This document shows, piece by piece, positions 9,352 to 43,154 of a stretch of DNA of 64,000 nucleotides. A program made the position numbers and the translations under genes. Each line of letters starts with the position of its first letter. The first letter of the stretch is position 1. The notes beneath the pieces were generated by a model. That model did not search any database, was not told the DNA's origin, and saw nothing but the letters and a program-made list of their open reading frames with translations. Source of the stretch: Winogradskyella costae (GTDB taxonomy: Bacteria; Bacteroidota; Bacteroidia; Flavobacteriales; Flavobacteriaceae); NCBI RefSeq assembly GCF_013403865.1, contig NZ_JABFDK010000001.1, positions 558,001-622,000 on the forward strand, in the 5' to 3' direction.

Positions 9352-9427
9352 GGTGCCTTAGCTCAGTTGGTAGAGCAAAGGACTGAAAATCCTTGTGTCC
9401 CTGGTTCGATTCCTGGAGGCACCACCA
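9352..9427 (+). tRNA. tRNA-Phe (anticodon GAA)
   Basis: The sequence folds as a complete cloverleaf: acceptor GGTGCCT with AGGCACC, D arm GCTC/GAGC, anticodon stem AAGGA/TCCTT (9378-9382 with 9390-9394) around loop CTGAAAA with anticodon GAA at 9385-9387, and T arm CCTGG-TTCGATT-CCTGG. The discriminator A (9424) and CCA (9425-9427) are encoded. It stands alone between its own promoter and terminator. Confidence 0.97.
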
Positions 9428-34827: not shown

Positions 34828-35469
34828 TTATTTCTTAGCCATCAAAACATCATTAATAATATATACTATTCCATTTGATGCATCAATATTTCCTTGAACA
34901 ACTTGAGCTTTTTTACCTCTTGAATCCTGAATCACATATTGATCTCCATCCATCATAGCCGTTAACTCTTCACCCGTGACAGTTTTAAAGGTGTATTTCC
35001 CTTTTCCTCCTTTAATAGCTTCCATCAATTTATCAGAAGTTATTTTCCCTGGCACCACATGATATTGCAAAACGCCTTGAAGACTTTCTTTATTTTCAGG
35101 TTTTAATAAATTATCTACCGTACCTTCTGGTAATTTAGAAAAGGCCTGATTAGATGGCGCAAAAACAGTGTAATTTCCAGGCTCTGATAACATTGTTGCT
35201 AAATCAGCAGCTTTCAATGCCGCTACCAACGTTGTTAAATCTTCATTAGACATTGCTTTACCTGCAATACTAATTTCCATTGCCATGGCCTTTCTTTCTT
35301 CCTCCATCTTTTTATCTTCCATCTCTTTTTGCTGATTAGCCTCCATTTCAACTTTTTCAGCTTCCATCTTCATCTTTTCCTCTTCCTTTTTGCCATCGTT
35401 ACATGCTGTAGTTACTACAAATAACATACATGTTACGATTCCTAATATTCTATTCATTTTTAATTTCAT
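34828..35469 (-). CDS. Fasciclin-domain lipoprotein
   Basis: 213 residues. Lipobox Cys23 (TTAC) is followed by a Met/Glu/Lys-rich, probably coiled-coil spacer (about 27-66), then one fasciclin (FAS1) domain: LVAALKAADLATML, the H1 motif NYTVFAPSNQAFSKLP, LQYHVVPGKI, and the H2-like GIVYIINDVLM. FAS1 domains mediate adhesion or surface interactions; the function of short bacterial ones is not known. An alternative start at the fifth codon (Met5) is equally possible. It is divergent from the ilv leader region. Confidence 0.88.
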   Translation of the reverse strand: MKLKMNRILGIVTCMLFVVTTACNDGKKEEEKMKMEAEKVEMEANQQKEMEDKKMEEERKAMAMEISIAGKAMSNEDLTTLVAALKAADLATMLSEPGNYTVFAPSNQAFSKLPEGTVDNLLKPENKESLQGVLQYHVVPGKITSDKLMEAIKGGKGKYTFKTVTGEELTAMMDGDQYVIQDSRGKKAQVVQGNIDASNGIVYIINDVLMAKK

Positions 35470-35609: not shown

Positions 35610-35641
35610 TTTGGATTCTAAAATAAAATGTATAATATTTG
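35610..35641 (+). promoter_or_regulatory. Putative promoter of the ilv leader transcript
   Basis: TTTG (35610-35613), a 20-bp spacer and AATATTTG (35634-35641) match the Bacteroidetes promoter with one mismatch (A for the first T of TAnnTTTG). The start site would fall within a few bases of the leader ATG at 35650, so the leader peptide may have a very short or no 5' UTR. A second candidate, TTAATTTG at 35606-35613, would start about 30 nt upstream of the ATG. Confidence 0.4.
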
Positions 35642-35649
35642 ATTTTAAT

Positions 35650-35724
35650 ATGAAAAACCAAATTATCAATATCATTTCTATTATTAGCATCGTGATTATT
35701 TCGCGAAGCCAAGGAATGCTATGA
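35650..35724 (+). CDS. Ile-rich leader peptide of the ilv operon (attenuator)
   Basis: 24 codons, ATG at 35650 and TGA at 35722-35724. It starts MKNQ and has Ile at residues 5, 6, 8, 9, 11, 12, 14, 16 and 17, Val at 15 and Leu at 24: ten of the thirteen residues 5-17 are Ile or Val. It lies in the long gap before ilvD and is followed 23 nt later by an intrinsic terminator. This is the design of E. coli IlvL-type leader peptides: a ribosome short of charged tRNA-Ile stalls in the Ile run and lets transcription continue. Expression is not shown by the sequence; the case rests on codon content plus the matching RNA stems. Confidence 0.85.
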   Translation: MKNQIINIISIISIVIISRSQGML

Positions 35725-35759
35725 TAAATTAAAATATAGATTTATTTAAAGCCTTCCTT
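35681..35759 (+). promoter_or_regulatory. Protector and antiterminator stems of the ilv attenuator
   Basis: Three segments compete. Segment 1 (35681-35690) pairs with segment 2 (35716-35727): TAGCAT with ATGCTA plus TTAT with ATAA across a 2-nt bulge. Segment 2 (35711-35720, AAGGAATGCT) can instead pair with segment 3 (35750-35759, AGCCTTCCTT) at nine of ten positions. Segment 3 contains most of the 5' arm of the terminator. A ribosome stalled on the Ile codons covers segment 1, freeing 2 to block the terminator; a ribosome that reaches the stop codon covers segment 2, so the terminator forms. Confidence 0.8.
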
Positions 35760-35778
35760 TTTTCGGAAGGCTTTTTTT
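35748..35778 (+). terminator. Attenuator terminator upstream of ilvD
   Basis: AAAGCCTTCC (35748-35757) pairs perfectly with GGAAGGCTTT (35765-35774) around loop TTTTTTC, followed by TTTT. It is a strong intrinsic terminator placed 177 bp before the ilvD start and after no gene other than the leader peptide, which only makes sense as a conditional stop. Confidence 0.9.
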
Positions 35779-35823
35779 ATGTAAAAAATTCACCTACTTG
35801 AACATCATAATAAACAAAACTTA

Positions 35824-35831
35824 TATCTTTG
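35824..35831 (+). promoter_or_regulatory. Possible second ilvD promoter downstream of the attenuator
   Basis: TATCTTTG matches TAnnTTTG exactly; a CTTG 23 bp upstream (35797-35800) is a poor -33 element. If active it would give basal ilv expression that bypasses attenuation. Confidence 0.3.
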
Positions 35832-35955
35832 ATTTTAAGCACATTAAACAACTGTTTAGAGTATTGAATTTAGAATAAGAAATAGAATATTAATAACTAA
35901 ATATAGCATATCAAGTAATTTAGATTTAGCAAATCGATGTTGCACAACTATTATT

Positions 35956-37635
35956 ATGAGCGAATTAAATAAATACAGTAAAACAGTTACACAAGATCCA
36001 ACACAACCAGCTGCTCAAGCCATGCTGCATGCTATTGGATTAACAAAAGAAGATTTTTTTAAACCAATCGTCGGCATTGCAAGTACGGGTTATGAAGGCA
36101 ACCCTTGCAATATGCACCTTAATGACTTAGCCAAATTGGTTAAAGAAGGCACAAAAAATGAAGATGTTATTGGATTAATTTTCAATACTATTGGTGTAAG
36201 TGACGGAATATCTATGGGGACCCCAGGCATGCGTTACTCACTGCCTTCTCGAGACATTATCGCAGATTCAATGGAAACCGTAGTTCAGGCCATGAGTTAT
36301 GATGGCTTAATCACCGTCGTTGGATGTGATAAAAATATGCCAGGTGCTTTAATGGCCATGATTCGTTTAGACAGACCAAGTATACTAGTCTATGGTGGCA
36401 CAATAGATTCTGGCTGCCACGAAGGAAAAAAATTAGATGTTGTTTCTGCCTTTGAAGCATGGGGAAGTAAAGTTGCCGGAACCATGGACGAAACTGAATA
36501 TCAAAGTATCGTTGAAAAAGCGTGTCCTGGAGCTGGTGCCTGTGGTGGTATGTACACTGCAAACACAATGGCTTCAGCAATTGAAGCTTTAGGAATGACC
36601 TTGCCTTTCAATTCTTCAAACCCTGCCTTAAGCGACGCTAAGAAGGAAGAATCGGTAAAAGCTGGTGAGGCTTTACGTTTATTATTAGAAAAAGATATAA
36701 AACCTTCAGATATTATTACTAGAAAATCTTTAGAAAACGCAGTAAGATTAGTGACTATTTTAGGAGGTTCTACCAATGCCGTATTGCACTTTTTAGCTAT
36801 CGCACGAGCGGCACAAATAGATTTTACACTAAAAGATTTTCAAGCAATCAGCGATAATACACCATTTTTAGCCGATTTAAAACCGAGTGGAAAATATTTA
36901 ATGGAAGATGTTCATACTGTTGGAGGTATTCCCGCAGTACTAAAATATCTTCTAAAGAAAGGTATGATTCATGGAGATTGCTTAACCGTTACAGGAAAAA
37001 CAATTGCAGAAAACTTATTAGATGTACCCGATTTAAAAGAAGGCCAAGACGTTATAAAACCAATTGAGGAACCAATAAAAATCTCAGGACATTTAAGAAT
37101 GCTTTACGGGAATTTAGCAACCGAAGGAAGTGTCGCTAAAATCACAGGAAAAGAAGGATTGTGCTTTAGAGGAAAAGCTAAAGTGTTTGAAGGAGAATAT
37201 GCCGCAAACGATGGTATTAGAGATGGAAAAGTTGAAAAAGGAGATGTGGTCGTCATTAGATACGAAGGTCCAAAAGGTGGACCAGGTATGCCAGAAATGT
37301 TAAAACCAACTGCTGCAATTATGGGAGCAGGTTTAGGTAAAGATGTAGCTTTAATTACAGATGGTCGTTTTTCAGGTGGAACACATGGTTTTGTTGTAGG
37401 CCATATTACACCAGAAGCACAAGAAGGTGGCACTATTGCCGTCGTAAAAGATGGAGATATTATAACGATCGATGCCGAGACCAATTCTATTTCATTAGAG
37501 GTCTCAGAAGCCGAACTTCAGAAAAGACGTCAACAATGGAAAGCACCAGAATTAAAATTTGAACGTGGAGTTCTATATAAATATGCTAAAACCGTATCAT
37601 CAGCATCTAAAGGCTGTGTCACTGACGAATTTTAA
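35956..37635 (+). CDS. ilvD: Dihydroxy-acid dehydratase
   Basis: 559 residues, normal length. Iron-sulfur ligand cysteines are Cys51 ([10 protein letters not shown]), Cys124 (GCDKNMPGA) and Cys196 ([15 protein letters not shown]); the C-terminal [19 protein letters not shown] is the active-site segment. It dehydrates dihydroxy-isovalerate and dihydroxy-methylvalerate to the keto acid precursors of Val and Ile. It is the first gene of ilvDBNCA and lies behind the Ile-rich attenuator. Confidence 0.97.
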
Positions 37636-37662
37636 AAAATTTATTTTGTAAGAAGTAACCTC

Positions 37663-37747
37663 TTAAGCGAGAGAACATAAAGCCAATCGCTTAAAAATTG
37701 AATTAAAAGATAAGTATTGAATAACCCGTCTAGTATCCAAAAGGATA
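37663..37747. repeat. Two hairpins in the ilvD-ilvB gap
   Basis: TTAAGCGA (37663-37670) and TCGCTTAA (37687-37694) form a perfect 8-bp stem with a 16-nt loop. TATCC/GGATA (37734-37738 with 37743-37747, loop AAAA) forms a second. Neither has a T-run, so they are mRNA or REP-like structures rather than terminators. Confidence 0.55.
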
Positions 37748-37763
37748 ACAGATTTTAAAATGA

Positions 37764-37785
37764 GATTCCCAATTTCACGGGAAGT
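37764..37785 (+). repeat. TTTC-loop palindrome before ilvB
   Basis: GAT-TTCCC...GGGAA: TTCCC (37766-37770) pairs with GGGAA (37779-37783) around a centre containing TTTC (37773-37776). It ends 7 bp before the ilvB ATG. It belongs to the same family as the elements before ilvA, argC, argF' and argB. Confidence 0.55.
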
Positions 37786-37791
37786 AAAAAC

Positions 37792-39528
37792 ATGAAAGAA
37801 ACTCAAACCATACAAAATAACACTAAAAGCACCGAAACTACAGAACGTATTTCTGGTAGCGAAGCCGTAATAAAATGTTTATTAGCCGAAGGTGTTGATA
37901 TACTATATGGATATCCTGGCGGAGCAATTATGCCAGTTTATGACGAATTATATAAGTATCAAGATAAAATTCATCATGTCTTAACTCGTCATGAACAAGG
38001 CGCCACGCATTCAGCACAAGGTTATGCTCGTATTTCAGGTAAAGTAGGAGTCTGCATGGCAACTTCTGGCCCTGGAGCAACCAATTTAATTACTGGTATT
38101 GCTGATGCACAGATCGACTCTACTCCAATGGTATGTATTACAGGTCAGGTAGGCTCACACCTATTAGGAAGTGATGCTTTTCAAGAAACTGATATTGTCG
38201 GAATCTCTACACCGATTACCAAATGGAATTGCCAGGTTACTAAAGCGTCTCAAATTCCTGAGGCTTTTGCAAAAGCATTTTACATTGCTAGAAGCGGAAG
38301 ACCTGGACCTGTGTTAATTGATATTACAAAGGATGCTCAATTTGAAGAATTCGATTTTAAATATGAGAAATGTAAAGGTATTAGAAGCTACAAACCGATT
38401 CCTGACACGGATGCAAATTCGTTAAAAGCAGCAGCGGAACTCATTAATAATGCTAAGAAACCATTAGTAGTTTGGGGACAAGGGGTTATATTAGGAAAGG
38501 CTGAAGAGGAATTTAAAGCTGTTATAGAAAAAGCCGGCATTCCTTCTGCATGGACAATTTTAGGTGCTTCAGCGATTCCTACGTCACATCCATTAAATGT
38601 TGGGATGGTTGGTATGCACGGTAATTACGCACCTAATGTCTTAACTAACGATTGTGATGTATTAATTGCTATTGGAATGCGATTTGATGATCGTGTTACA
38701 GGAAATTTAGAAACTTATGCAAAGCAGGCAAAAATTATTCATTTTGATATTGATCCTGCGGAAATAGATAAAAACGTAAAAACAGATGTCGCCGTTTTAG
38801 GAGACTCAAAAGCTAGTTTAAAAAGCTTGTTGCCATTATTGAATGAAAATTCTCATAGTGACTGGCATCAAAAGTTTAAAGATTTATATAAAATAGAATA
38901 CGAAAAAGTCATTAAAGACGACTTGCACCCTACTAAAGAAGGCTTAACGATGGCTGAAGTGTTGAAAGAAATCAACATTCAGACAAAAGGAAACGCTGCT
39001 ATTGTAAGTGATGTTGGTCAACACCAAATGATTGCCTGTCGTTATGCCGAATTCAACAAAACCAAAAGTAATATTACATCTGGCGGATTAGGAACAATGG
39101 GATTTGCGCTGCCAGCGGCTATTGGCGCAAAAATGGCAGCTCCAGACAGAGAGGTCGTAATGATTGCCGGCGATGGAGGTTACCAAATGACAATTCAAGA
39201 ATTAGGAACTATTTTTCAACAAAAAGTACCTGTAAAAATTGTGGTATTAAACAATGAATTCCTTGGTATGGTACGCCAATGGCAACAGTTATTTTTCGAT
39301 AAACGCTATGCCTCTACCGAAATGACTAACCCAGATTTTGTAGCCATTGCAAAAGGATATTCTATTGAAGCCCAAAAAATAACCGAACGCAAAGATTTAA
39401 AAACCGCTGTAAAAGAAATGATTGACTGTGAAGGTCCTTATTTCTTAGAAGTTAGAGTAGAAAAGGAAGGTAATGTATTCCCAATGATTCCAACAGGAGC
39501 AAGTGTTTCAGATATACGATTAGAGTAA
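37792..39528 (+). CDS. ilvB: Acetolactate synthase large subunit
   Basis: 578 residues. The cofactor-activating Glu68 lies in RHEQGATHSAQGYAR; the FAD region has GMHGNYAPN and MRFDDRVTGN; the ThDP/Mg motif is AGDGGYQMTIQELGT ending in VVLNN. It joins two pyruvates, or pyruvate and 2-oxobutyrate, into the acetohydroxy acids that start Val/Leu and Ile synthesis. The first 20 residues are a variable tail; ATG at 37792 is the only sensible start. It pairs with IlvN, encoded next. Confidence 0.96.
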   Translation: MKETQTIQNNTKSTETTERISGSEAVIKCLLAEGVDILYGYPGGAIMPVYDELYKYQDKIHHVLTRHEQGATHSAQGYARISGKVGVCMATSGPGATNLITGIADAQIDSTPMVCITGQVGSHLLGSDAFQETDIVGISTPITKWNCQVTKASQIPEAFAKAFYIARSGRPGPVLIDITKDAQFEEFDFKYEKCKGIRSYKPIPDTDANSLKAAAELINNAKKPLVVWGQGVILGKAEEEFKAVIEKAGIPSAWTILGASAIPTSHPLNVGMVGMHGNYAPNVLTNDCDVLIAIGMRFDDRVTGNLETYAKQAKIIHFDIDPAEIDKNVKTDVAVLGDSKASLKSLLPLLNENSHSDWHQKFKDLYKIEYEKVIKDDLHPTKEGLTMAEVLKEINIQTKGNAAIVSDVGQHQMIACRYAEFNKTKSNITSGGLGTMGFALPAAIGAKMAAPDREVVMIAGDGGYQMTIQELGTIFQQKVPVKIVVLNNEFLGMVRQWQQLFFDKRYASTEMTNPDFVAIAKGYSIEAQKITERKDLKTAVKEMIDCEGPYFLEVRVEKEGNVFPMIPTGASVSDIRLE

Positions 39529-39529
39529 A

Positions 39530-39604
39530 TAAACAGAATACAGAGAAAAGAATAAAGACCAATGAGAGAAAAAAGTAAGATAGAACGAAATAAGATTCTG
39601 TTTA
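39530..39604. repeat. 10-bp inverted repeat in the ilvB-ilvN gap
   Basis: TAAACAGAAT (39530-39539) and ATTCTGTTTA (39595-39604) are exact mirror copies, separated by 55 bp of purine-rich sequence containing GAGAGAAAA. The element fills almost the whole gap. A similar arrangement precedes ilvC. Confidence 0.55.
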
Positions 39605-39634
39605 CGATTTTCTTTTATCTATAATCTCAAAGAA

Positions 39635-40165
39635 ATGAGTACAGAAAACAAACAATATACCGTTTCAATTTATACGGAAAACAACATTGGGTTGCTGAAT
39701 AGAATTTCCGCAATATTCCAAAGAAGACACATGAATATTGAAAGTTTAAATACGTCACCATCAGAAATTGAGGGTGTTTCAAGATTTACCATTGTCGTCA
39801 ATATTACCGAATCTCAAATGAAAAAGATTCAGGGTCAGATTGAAAAACAAGTTGAAGTTATAAAAGCATTTTATCACACAGAAGAGGAAATCATTTATCA
39901 AGAATCTTGCATCTTTAAAATGAGATCTAACCTCTTGTTTGATGAGCGCCAAATTCAAAATATTATAAAAGAAAGTAATGCTAGGATTGTCACTGTAAAT
40001 CGTGATTTCTTCGTTATAGAAAAGTCGGGTAAAAAGGAAGAAATAGATTTACTACATAGAGAATTAACTGTTTTTGGAATTATGCAATTTACACGCTCAG
40101 GGCGCATTGCTGTCACTAAAGACGAAATGAAAATATCAACAATGCTTAAAGCGTTGCAACACTAA
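39635..40165 (+). CDS. ilvN: Acetolactate synthase small (regulatory) subunit
   Basis: 176 residues, typical of the longer IlvN/IlvH class. An N-terminal ACT domain (about 8-80) has the NNIGLLNRISAIFQRRHMNIESL core; the C-terminal domain (about 85-170) has the GKKEEIDLLHRELTVFGIMQFTRSGRIA segment. It confers valine feedback control on IlvB. Confidence 0.95.
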   Translation: MSTENKQYTVSIYTENNIGLLNRISAIFQRRHMNIESLNTSPSEIEGVSRFTIVVNITESQMKKIQGQIEKQVEVIKAFYHTEEEIIYQESCIFKMRSNLLFDERQIQNIIKESNARIVTVNRDFFVIEKSGKKEEIDLLHRELTVFGIMQFTRSGRIAVTKDEMKISTMLKALQH

Positions 40166-40185
40166 ATAAATAAAATAAAGCGATT

Positions 40186-40241
40186 AGAAAATAGTGTTGA
40201 GAGACAAGAAAATTACGGAAAGTATATAGCGTCTATTTTCT
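40186..40241. repeat. 9-bp inverted repeat in the ilvN-ilvC gap
   Basis: AGAAAATAG (40186-40194) is mirrored exactly by CTATTTTCT (40233-40241), with purine-rich GAGAGACAAGAAAA between. It resembles the ilvB-ilvN gap element in size, base composition and position, suggesting a second family of intergenic repeats. Confidence 0.5.
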
Positions 40242-40284
40242 CTTTCTCAATTCAGTTTTCTTCAAACAAAAACAACTAGAAACA

Positions 40285-41784
40285 ATGTCAAATTATTTCA
40301 ACACATTACCATTAAGAGAACAATTAGATCAATTAGGAAAATGTCGTTTCATGGACGCTTCAGAATTTGAAGATGGCGTAAACGTATTAAAAGGAAAGAA
40401 AATAGTTATTGTTGGTTGTGGTGCTCAAGGCCTAAACCAAGGATTAAATATGAGAGATTCTGGATTAGACATTTCATACACGCTACGTCAGCAAGCTATT
40501 GATGAAAAACGTGATTCTTACAAAAACGCAACCTCTAACGGATTTACTGTTGGTACGTATGAAGAATTAATACCAACGGCAGATTTAGTGTTAAACTTAA
40601 CACCAGACAAGCAACATACCAATGTTGTAAAAGCGATAATGCCTTTAATGAAAAAAGGAGCAACATTAAGCTATTCACATGGTTTTAATATTGTTGAAGA
40701 AGGCACAAAAATCCGTGAGGATTTAACCGTAATTATGGTGGCACCAAAATGTCCAGGAACTGAAGTAAGAGAAGAATACAAAAGAGGTTTTGGAGTTCCG
40801 ACATTAACTGCAGTACACCCTGAAAATGATCCTGAAGGAAAAGGTTGGGCTCAGGCTAAAGCTTATGCTGCTGCAACTGGTGGTCATCGTGCAGGTGTAT
40901 TGGAATCGTCTTTTATTGCAGAAGTGAAAAGTGATTTAATGGGTGAACAAACTATTCTTTGTGGTTTATTACAAACCGGTGCCATTTTATCTTTCGATAA
41001 GATGGTTGAAGAAGGTATTGAACCTGGTTACGCTGCTAAATTGATTCAGTTTGGTTGGGAAACGATTACCGAAGCATTAAAGCATGGAGGAATCACTAAC
41101 ATGATGGATCGTTTATCAAATCCTGCAAAACTGAAAGCTTTCGAATTATCCGAAGAGTTAAAAGGTATTATGCGTCCGCTTTTCGAAAAGCATATGGACG
41201 ATATTATTTCGGGTCACTTCTCTCAAACTATGATGGAAGATTGGGCAAATGACGATATCAACCTATTAACCTGGCGCGCTGAAACAGAAGAAACTGCCTT
41301 TGAAAAAACAGAATTAACTTCAGATCACATCACAGAACAAGAGTATTTTGACCACGGTGTTTTGTTAATTGCATTTGTAAAGTCTGGCGTTGAACTCGCT
41401 TTCGAAACTATGGTAAGCGCAGGTATTATCGAAGATTCTGCTTATTACGAATCTTTACATGAATTACCGCTGATCGCCAACACAATCGCAAGAAAGAAAT
41501 TATTTGAAATGAACCGTGTTATTTCTGATACAGCTGAATATGGTTGTTATTTATTTGATCATGCTTGTAAACCATTATTAACTGATTTTATGAAAACAGT
41601 GGATACGTCGATCATTGGAAAGCCATTTTCAAAAACAACAGGAGTTGACAATATAGAATTAATCGCTGTTAATGATGCGATTAGAAACCATCCTATCGAG
41701 GCTGTGGGTCATCGTTTACGTGCGGCAATGACTGCTATGAAAGTGATTAAAACTGATGATGTAAAAACATCTGTATTAGCGTAA
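40285..41784 (+). CDS. ilvC: Ketol-acid reductoisomerase (class II)
   Basis: 499 residues, so the long enterobacterial-type class II enzyme with a duplicated knotted domain, not the 330-residue class I form. The NADPH loop is [18 protein letters not shown] near residues 44-60; [17 protein letters not shown] and the metal-binding [15 protein letters not shown] are intact. It isomerises and reduces acetohydroxy acids in Val and Ile synthesis. Confidence 0.97.
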
Positions 41785-41794
41785 CAAAAATTAT

Positions 41795-41845
41795 CCTGTC
41801 AGGTTTTATGATGGCTGAGCGCAGCCAAAGTCAAAACCTGATAGG
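41795..41845. repeat. CCTGTCAGGTTTT palindrome with internal hairpin, ilvC-ilvA gap
   Basis: CCTGTCAGGTTTT (41795-41807) pairs with AAAACCTGATAGG (41833-41845) at 12 of 13 positions. The loop holds a second hairpin, GGCTGAGCGCAGCC (41813-41826). It is a member of the AGGTTTT...AAAACCT palindromes that recur through the arginine operon. Confidence 0.65.
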
Positions 41846-41859
41846 TCTAATAAATAAGA

Positions 41860-41880
41860 GATTCCCTTTTTCAAGGGAAG
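41860..41880 (+). repeat. TTTC-loop palindrome before ilvA
   Basis: TTCCCTT (41862-41868) pairs perfectly with AAGGGAA (41873-41879) around loop TTTC (41869-41872). It ends 6 bp before the ilvA ATG at 41886. Confidence 0.65.
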
Positions 41881-41885
41881 TGAGC

Positions 41886-43154
41886 ATGGAAGAAACAAAA
41901 ACTACATACAGACCAACATTAAAAGCTATTGAAGCTGCAGCAGAAAAATTAATTGGGATTGCGTCAGTAACACCTTTAATTAAAAATGCGAGATATTCTA
42001 AAGACTTTGATGCTAACATTTATTTTAAAAGAGAAGATCTACAAGTTGTCCGTTCTTACAAAATTCGTGGTGCATATAATAAAATAGCCTCTTTGAGTCC
42101 TTCTCAAATTGAAAACGAAATTGTGTGCGCCAGTGCAGGAAATCATGCCCAAGGTGTTGCAATTTCATGTAAGCTTTTAAAAATAAAAGGCACTATTTTT
42201 ATGCCCTCTCCTACTCCAAATCAAAAGATTGAACAGGTAAAAATGTTTGGGGAAGACTATGTTGAAGTTGTTCTAGTTGGTGACACTTTTGATGATGCTT
42301 ACCATGCAGCAATGCAACAATGCAAAGAATTCAATAAAACGTTTGTTCACCCTTTTAATGACGAGAAAGTTATCGAAGGTCAGGCGACCGTTGGCTTAGA
42401 AATTATAGACCAAGCTAAAGTACACCCTATTCATTACGTTTTTGTACCCGTTGGTGGTGGTGGATTGGCGGCAGGATTATCTTCAGTCTTTAAAATCTTA
42501 TCTCCTCAAACAAAAATTATTAGTGTAGAGCCAAAAGGCGCACCAGCGATGTTAACGTCTATTAGAGAAAATAAAAACACAGAATTAAAGACCATTGATA
42601 GTTTTGTAGATGGAGCTGCAGTAAAACGTGTTGGAGATTTAAGTTTTGCTATTTGTAAAGAGACATTACATCGTGTCGTAACGGTAGACGAAGGTAAAAT
42701 TTGTCAGACCATCTTAGACTTATATAACAAAGATGCTATCGTTGTTGAACCTGCAGGAGCTTTAAGTCTTTGTGCATTAGACCAATTTTCTGAAGAAATT
42801 AAAGGTAAAAACGTAGTTTGTGTTATTAGTGGTAGCAATAATGATATCACTCGAATGGCAGAAATTAAAGAACGTGCCCTTCTCTATGCCAATCTTAAGC
42901 ATTACTTTATTATTAAGTTTCCGCAACGTGCGGGTGCTTTGCGTGATTTTGTAGTTGATATTTTAGGACCAACAGATGATATTACCCATTTTGAATACAC
43001 AAAAAAAGTCAACAGAGAAAATGATGTGGCCGTCGTTGGTTTACAGTTAAAATCCCCTGATGATTTAGAGCCATTAATTACTAAAATGAAACTCCATAAT
43101 TTCTATGGAGATTACCTAAATGACAAGCCTGATTTATTTCAGTTTTTAGTATAG
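41886..43154 (+). CDS. ilvA: Threonine ammonia-lyase (biosynthetic)
   Basis: 422 residues from the ATG at 41886. The PLP lysine is Lys59 in RSYKIRGAYNK; the glycine loop is VPVGGGGLAAGLSS; SAGNHAQG binds the substrate. One ACT-like regulatory domain occupies about 335-422 (YFIIKFPQRAGALRDFV), the short IlvA form with a single ACT-like unit. It makes 2-oxobutyrate, the committed precursor of Ile, so it belongs with an Ile-sensing attenuator. An ATG at 41808 is in frame but would translate the intergenic palindromes, so it is rejected. Confidence 0.95.
   Translation: MEETKTTYRPTLKAIEAAAEKLIGIASVTPLIKNARYSKDFDANIYFKREDLQVVRSYKIRGAYNKIASLSPSQIENEIVCASAGNHAQGVAISCKLLKIKGTIFMPSPTPNQKIEQVKMFGEDYVEVVLVGDTFDDAYHAAMQQCKEFNKTFVHPFNDEKVIEGQATVGLEIIDQAKVHPIHYVFVPVGGGGLAAGLSSVFKILSPQTKIISVEPKGAPAMLTSIRENKNTELKTIDSFVDGAAVKRVGDLSFAICKETLHRVVTVDEGKICQTILDLYNKDAIVVEPAGALSLCALDQFSEEIKGKNVVCVISGSNNDITRMAEIKERALLYANLKHYFIIKFPQRAGALRDFVVDILGPTDDITHFEYTKKVNRENDVAVVGLQLKSPDDLEPLITKMKLHNFYGDYLNDKPDLFQFLV

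Follow-up and report, generated by a model that had tools for sequence, protein, structure and literature searches.

Ribosome-mediated attenuators control the ilvGMEDA, leu, his, trp and thr operons of Escherichia coli. Each has a short frame enriched in codons for the amino acid that the operon makes, together with a pause helix, an antiterminator, an intrinsic terminator, and a stop codon so placed that a ribosome that has finished the frame covers region 2. Vitreschak et al. reportedly predicted some attenuators in Bacteroidetes/Chlorobi in 2004, and a comparative study is said to have been made by Lopatovskaya et al. in 2010. Another 2010 paper was aware of no cases outside Proteobacteria and Actinobacteria before its own case from Firmicutes (PMC2965389). 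As described, the Corynebacterium ilvBNC attenuator (PMC11857589, PMC10272879) resembles the locus analysed here in placing a branched-chain operon under leader control, although it belongs to a different phylum. Nearer in descent, work on Flavobacterium psychrophilum sees 'strong clues' that amino-acid operons are preceded by attenuators of the leader-peptide kind (PMC9723704). These predicted attenuators share with the present locus both the family and a position upstream of amino-acid biosynthesis operons, but 'ilv' is absent from the searched text of that paper (Table S7 aside), and its passages show no comparative test. A passage on Bacteroides thetaiotaomicron mentions short ORFs 'reminiscent of leader peptides' (PMC7366714). 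Our search of open-licence papers found no ilv attenuator in Flavobacteriia; the first-pass annotation of this DNA, which knew of no characterised example in the class, must nonetheless be tempered, since leader-peptide attenuation has already been proposed in F. psychrophilum (PMC9723704).

The window, to which all positions refer, is the whole stretch of 64,000 nucleotides analysed from Winogradskyella costae (contig NZ_JABFDK010000001.1, positions 558,001 to 622,000, forward strand). Its sole Rfam match at gathering score is a tRNA gene at 9352-9424. The IlvD encoded in the window is 98% identical to that of Winogradskyella psychrotolerans, the nearest named relative found. Upstream of ilvD, the segment 35650-35778 is likely a ribosome-mediated transcription attenuator that would allow read-through into ilvDBNCA when charged tRNA-Ile (and, to a lesser degree, charged tRNA-Val) is short. 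What sequence and comparison show is the frame, the helices that could form, the covariation within the pause and terminator helices, and how far the codons stand from the helix. The features concerned are as follows.

35610..35613, + strand: TTTG, a possible -33 element for the predicted promoter P1, with the -7-like box 20 nt further on
35634..35641, + strand: AATATTTG, predicted P1 -7 box, departing from TAnnTTTG at one position
35650..35724, + strand: leader frame, 24 codons, with counterparts in 57 of 106 family loci and 13 of 29 classified same-genus loci (directly before ilvD)
35663..35679, + strand: region 1, strand of the pause helix pairing with region 2 (-10.9 kcal/mol; covariation; swap test)
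35711..35727, + strand: region 2, partner of region 1 or (35711-35720) of region 3, containing the leader stop codon
35748..35778, + strand: hairpin of the intrinsic terminator (regions 3:4) with its U run (-14.3 kcal/mol), conserved in relatives
35750..35759, + strand: region 3, 5' arm of the terminator and alternative partner of region 2 (-10.4 kcal/mol with 35711-35720)
35798..35877, + strand: conserved block (DE), TTGAACATCATA - palindromic core - TTGAATTTAG (right part also given as TTGAATTTAA), with nearly fixed spacing
35916..35923, + strand: TAATTTAG, predicted -7 box of promoter P2, pattern TA[ACT]TTT[AT]G
35956..43154, + strand: ilvD, ilvB, ilvN, ilvC and ilvA (gene names by NCBIfam)

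The segment has a frame, pause helix and terminator like those of the E. coli attenuators, along with a candidate antiterminator, and would work by the same logic. If the RNA starts, as predicted, about 4 nt ahead of the leader ATG, the ribosome would board it very near its 5' end. Under isoleucine shortage, the ribosome would halt within the Ile codons and mask region 1, so that region 2 could pair with region 3 and the terminator would be prevented; with ample isoleucine, it would go on to the stop codon and mask region 2, allowing the terminator to fold. P2, together with a site shared with leuA, would add a second control layer independent of the attenuator. Unlike the E. coli attenuators, the one described here is predicted to have its RNA start about 4 nt ahead of the leader ATG; its codons are mainly Ile with Val and little Leu, and a predicted promoter lies behind the terminator. 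Some relatives also differ from E. coli in carrying two units in series.

The frame at 35650-35724 (+) encodes MKNQIINIISIISIVIISRSQGML and ends with a stop codon. Ile occupies residues 5, 6, 8, 9, 11, 12, 14, 16 and 17, and Val residue 15: translation thus bears out the 24-codon frame, with nine Ile and one Val within residues 5-17, that the first-pass annotation had described. The two strands of the whole window together have 642 ORFs that begin with ATG and span 10-60 codons; of these, the leader alone has at least nine Ile per 13 residues, and this density is reached by none of 58,067 ORFs simulated in 60 first-order Markov windows. A laxer measure (at least ten Ile, Leu or Val in 13) is less striking: two ORFs in the window vs 53 over the 60 simulated windows.

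The terminator, AAAGCCTTCC-N7-GGAAGGCTTT followed by a U run, has a folding energy of -14.3 kcal/mol for 35748-35778 and lies 177 nt from ilvD. It is strong, as had been claimed, and the claim that no gene precedes it agrees with the nearest long ORF upstream (34828-35469) being on the minus strand. Two mutually exclusive pairings had also been proposed. One stands as described: the antiterminator, 35711-35720 with 35750-35759, has nine pairs and one U.C mismatch (-10.4 kcal/mol). The pause pairing named alongside it, with a first strand put at about 35681-35690, is present (about 35679-35691 with 35715-35727) at -8.6 to -9.0 kcal/mol, but is the weaker of two; the stronger, 35663-35679 with 35712-35727, reaches -10.9 kcal/mol and overlaps the helix conserved in relatives, in which region 2 likewise begins at or near the leader stop. 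Because the terminator (-14.3) outcompetes the antiterminator (-10.4) at equilibrium, the switch must be kinetic.

Conservation was assessed in a family sample of 149 genomes, one per genus. A match to ilvD was obtained in 110, from which 106 upstream regions were taken (G016, G062 and G065, near contig starts or fragmentary, were left out, as was G067). The detector sought a GC-rich hairpin with a U run, preceded by a short frame that ends no more than 75 nt before it and has five or more Ile, Leu or Val in 12 residues. A terminator together with a branched-chain-rich leader frame was found in 57 of the 106 regions; the codon runs are conserved, which is what an alignment of related Flavobacteriaceae had been proposed to check. 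By the same detector 49 loci have no attenuator, among them L026, which has no upstream sequence, and L082, whose attenuator was missed. A hairpin kept with its frame lost, the outcome named beforehand as counting against the proposal, turned up only at isolated loci: within the genus at L332 and L350, and in the wider family at L093 and L097, whose frames are degenerate. The terminators fall into two sequence types, T1 (GCCTTCC/GGAAGGC, the type of the window) in 43 loci and T2 (CCTGTATC/GATACAGG) in 23. Nine loci carry both, T1 first and each with its own leader frame; L084 is a tenth, its T1 hairpin and frame having been missed by the detector. Ile makes up 31% of T1 leader residues, Val 14% and Leu 6%, and in 14 of 23 T2 loci the UGA stop of the leader is the start of the antiterminator strand.

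Covariation among these loci divides the helices. When the pause and terminator helices are scored jointly, 86% of cells are paired in T1 (41 sequences) and 96% in T2 (21 sequences), with covariation of 0.255 vs 0.188 shuffled and of 0.363 vs 0.210 shuffled, respectively (0/500 in each case). The T1 terminator helix (41 sequences) has 96.3% of its cells paired and shows changes on both sides in five of eight pairs. Pause strands pair better with their native than with swapped partners (0/2000 permutations in T1 and in T2). For the antiterminator, the swap test gave 1/2000 in T1 and 117/2000 in T2; column covariation in T1 was as high in 431 of 500 shuffles, and the strands hardly vary. At L041, by eye, the terminator arms and region 2 have changed together. 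The covarying stems for which the first-pass annotation suggested a search are thus present in the pause and terminator helices, but the T1 antiterminator columns show no excess over shuffles. The T1 swap test omitted L025; the remaining T1 tests omitted both L025 and L028, and most T2 tests omitted L015 and L035.

A further question concerns the placement of the control codons. The distance from the first base of the last Ile/Leu/Val codon to the first paired base of region 2 has a median of 15 nt both in T1 (IQR 13-16, n=41) and in T2 (IQR 9-17, n=21). Folding of the RNA up to region 3 was modelled with an assumed ribosome footprint that reaches 16 nt back and 12 nt forward from the A-site base. 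For the window, the modelled antiterminator probability stays at 0.72 while the ribosome is on any codon through the last Ile, falls to 0.61 and then 0.32 on the two codons that follow, and is 0.02 on the stop. Mean probabilities at the last three Ile/Leu/Val codons vs the stop are 0.62 vs 0.06 in T1 (higher in 40 of 41 loci) and 0.73 vs 0.14 in T2 (higher in 21 of 21). In the folding model, then, the control codons are so placed that a stalled ribosome would free region 2 and a ribosome at the stop would hide it. Folding without a ribosome gives 0.72 for the window and means of 0.47 for T1 and 0.26 for T2; at 31 of 41 T1 loci, the last three Ile/Leu/Val codons exceed the value that the locus gives with no ribosome. 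Since the antiterminator of the window stands at 0.72 even without a ribosome, extra termination in the absence of translation is not predicted here; and since a stall at any other codon of the stretch would be equally effective, specificity would come from codon content alone. On both points the model departs from the textbook scheme.

According to a passage on Flavobacterium johnsoniae, transcription starts 4-5 nt after the -7 box and the -33 element is weak (PMC6847099). Because of this box-to-start spacing of 4-5 nt, the leader mRNA of the window is predicted to start near 35646, 4 nt before the ATG. Boxes matching TAnnTTTG with at most one mismatch lie 8-10 nt before the leader ATG in T1 (31 hits in 41 loci; background 0.030 per locus-position), and similar boxes lie 4-5 nt before it in solo T2 loci (nine hits in 13 loci; background 0.015 per position), whose leader RNAs are predicted to start at or next to the ATG. 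For these counts, three T1 frames and four T2 frames were taken to begin at an inner Met. No such box was found 4-12 nt before the second leader in the nine tandem loci. The same source gives leaders of more than 10 nt for 87% of cases in F. johnsoniae (PMC6847099), and leaderless mRNAs are put at 5.5% in F. psychrophilum (PMC9723704).

The reach of the attenuator was explored with R1, a covariance model of T1, run on 395 genomes of the phylum. Tallies of 136/395 (E 0.05) and, in the genus, of 33/60 (E 0.001) overcount; the cut-offs used were E below about 3e-5 for the phylum and 1e-6 for the genus, and at the latter 19 of 60 genus genomes have R1. Weak matches in the genus (L314-L322, E 1e-4 to 1e-3) were rejected as attenuators, being 3' ends of genes with the GCCCTTCC terminator, and serve as a warning for searches that use short-leader models; L311, at a contig end, was excluded. 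Thirty best-match loci were examined (L107 and L117-L145, one per genome, E up to 2.7e-5), and 26 precede a gene matching IlvD or IlvN, either directly or after one gene. The other four are L137 (at a contig end), L139 (ilvE downstream), L142, and L141 (G150:C1:2234262-2234393), where a Thr/Ile-rich leader, MYNSTIIITIIITTGRNLAEE, stands before an aspartokinase/homoserine dehydrogenase-like gene. The L141 leader resembles a thr attenuator, in Bacteroidota. Leaders that mix Thr and Ile, for example MITRTTITVIINVIGTKYRPGK, occur directly before ilvD at L133, L140 and L143 (family f24).

Among 80 named ilvD loci, R1 or R2, the other attenuator model, matches at E 1e-5 or better in Meridianimaribacter, Gaetbulibacter, Tenacibaculum, Lutibacter, Aquimarina, Flavobacterium, Chryseobacterium, Dokdonia, Zobellia and Maribacter. 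A reach of R2 beyond the family was rejected: only four of 247 genomes gave E < 1e-5, and all four belong to that same family. In the window's own genome, an R2 match (L368, E 1.2e-4) was rejected, its leader not being branched-chain-rich. Serial pairs with Ile/Val-rich frames are found in Gaetbulibacter (L189), Tenacibaculum (L190), Lutibacter (L214), Aquimarina (L197) and Chryseobacterium (L244); at L190 and L244 the units lie 1.0-1.4 kb before ilvD. Outside the class, G212 and G495 (family f17) each have two adjoining R1 matches (E 5.6e-6 and 1.6e-5; 4.0e-7 and 3.3e-5). In genus g128, two serial leaders with terminators, of eight to ten Ile and zero to two Val each, precede an IlvN-like gene (below curated cut-offs) at L361, L362 and L363; at L362 this gene is followed by ilvA. 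The ilvD leaders of the same genus (five counted) have 5-9 Ile and 4-6 Val. Leaders of the IlvN-like gene are thus Ile-heavy where ilvD leaders have more Val, and codon content follows the product of the pathway or operon. As described, the tandem attenuators of Salmonella mgtCBR (PMC3641672) likewise control elongation through two leader frames within a single leader region, but they concern other genes and signals, whereas here some relatives have two serial leader-terminator units for the same amino acids.

Within the genus, ilvD is present in 38 of 60 genomes; loci were obtained for 30 of the 38 and 29 were classified (L340 was left out). Thirteen have an attenuator directly before ilvD, 14 are without a complete one (L332 and L350, with a similar hairpin, among them), and two have another coding frame (ilvE, by eye) directly before ilvD. 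The conserved block at 35798-35877, by comparison, is present in 27 of the 29, including L325 and L326, which have a 99% identical IlvD and no attenuator. It seems, then, that the attenuator is a module that can be present or absent while the operator-promoter region behind it stays constant. At L332 (G587), a T1-like terminator stands without a recognisable leader frame and is possibly a decaying attenuator. Where the leader persists, its peptide drifts (IISIISIVIIS, IISIIRIEIIS, IISITRIVIIS), while the load of Ile codons and the pairing elements stay.

The block itself is probably a protein-binding DNA site outside the attenuator. Its alignment comprised 62, then 60, of 71 candidate loci, the remainder being left out by eye; a structured RNA was rejected, RNAalifold finding zero pairs in 62 sequences. 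R3, a sequence-only model of the block, was built with most ilvD places and without leuA places. In the window's own 4.1-Mb genome it ranks ilvD first (E 7.7e-11) and a place upstream of leuA second (0.0013; gene name by NCBIfam). Loci of leuA were covered for 30 of the 56 genomes that have the gene: R3 matches (E 0.05 or better) lie about 90-165 nt upstream of leuA in 26 of the 30, and the attenuator models R1 and R2 each match 0/30 (E 0.5). The wider R3 tally, 78 of 80 family genomes (E 0.05), includes many weak palindromes and training sequences, and only the leuA places count as evidence. The block, with a palindromic core common to the ilvD and leuA promoter regions (upstream of leuA at L147 and L265-L294), is likely the operator of a branched-chain regulator; six AsnC/Lrp-type genes in the genome singled out no regulator for it. 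As for P2, its box pattern, TA[ACT]TTT[AT]G, was chosen after viewing the sequences; of 29 same-genus loci, 25 have it no more than 70 nt from ilvD, and in 19 of these it stands 32-33 nt before the ATG (background 10 of 315 70-mers), and family-wide it has no single sharp position. P2 behind the terminator and the site shared with leuA probably form a second control layer independent of the attenuator, which a promoter so placed would bypass.

These findings bear on how much the attenuator contributes. It could be real but minor, most ilvDBNCA mRNA coming from P2 under a block-binding regulator and P1 adding a small Ile-tuned part. The P2 box and block are indeed kept in relatives that have no attenuator, two of them with a 99% identical IlvD, and the core of the block stands upstream of leuA at 26 of 30 loci where the attenuator models score 0/30. 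Against this, the attenuator keeps its pairing and geometry where it is present and is found in 13 of 29 same-genus loci, which argues for its relevance there; we regard a minor role as rather unlikely. The control by charged tRNA-Ile originally proposed survives in its attenuation logic and in Ile (with Val) as the likely signal, but given the predicted P2 and the block shared with leuA, tRNA-Ile would not act alone.

Readings that dispense with the attenuator fare worse. If the hairpin were a plain terminator against stray transcription and the Ile-rich frame an accident, then loci such as L332 and L350, which keep a similar hairpin without a recognisable leader (at L350 directly after a gene end), would be natural, as would R1 matches at E 1e-4 to 1e-3 that include gene ends with a terminator. 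However, none of the 58,067 simulated ORFs is equally rich in Ile, frame and terminator occur together in 57 of 106 loci, and the covarying pause helix and codon spacing also speak against an accident, which we consider very unlikely. An amino-acid operon with an upstream terminator would equally suit a T-box or another tRNA- or ligand-binding leader RNA, the short frame then being untranslated; yet Rfam scores fall below gathering throughout the region (the best, Phe_leader, has 26.4 bits vs 55), T-box is not among the matches and the codon runs are conserved, so that this alternative is highly improbable. Leader peptides act as arrest peptides in some other systems, and the peptide itself might sense a small molecule here; the drift of the peptide within the genus, while Ile codon load and pairing elements stay, makes this hardly credible.

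The preferred reading, a ribosome-mediated attenuator, thus describes what we infer to be a conserved device of classical type with local features: a predicted near-leaderless start, serial units in relatives, and a constant second layer. More widely, Bacteroidota may hold a phylum-wide set of modular, near-leaderless Ile/Val(/Thr) attenuators, boarded at the 5' end, serially double-checking the same tRNAs in several lineages, gained and lost over an operator-promoter common to leuA, and working only with close coupling of ribosome and RNA polymerase and without Shine-Dalgarno pairing; this we offer tentatively, as a possibility about which we remain somewhat more sceptical than convinced. In a passage of PMC6847099, the mRNAs of Bacteroidota are described as naturally lacking Shine-Dalgarno sequences. 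If the attenuator works as proposed, the ribosome must trail RNA polymerase closely in this phylum, and read-through at the terminator of the window would be an easy readout of how closely the two are coupled. The genus offers natural controls, since the same P2 region occurs in relatives that have the module and in others that lack it, and the serial form in relatives poses a question of its own: why would a cell test the same tRNAs twice?
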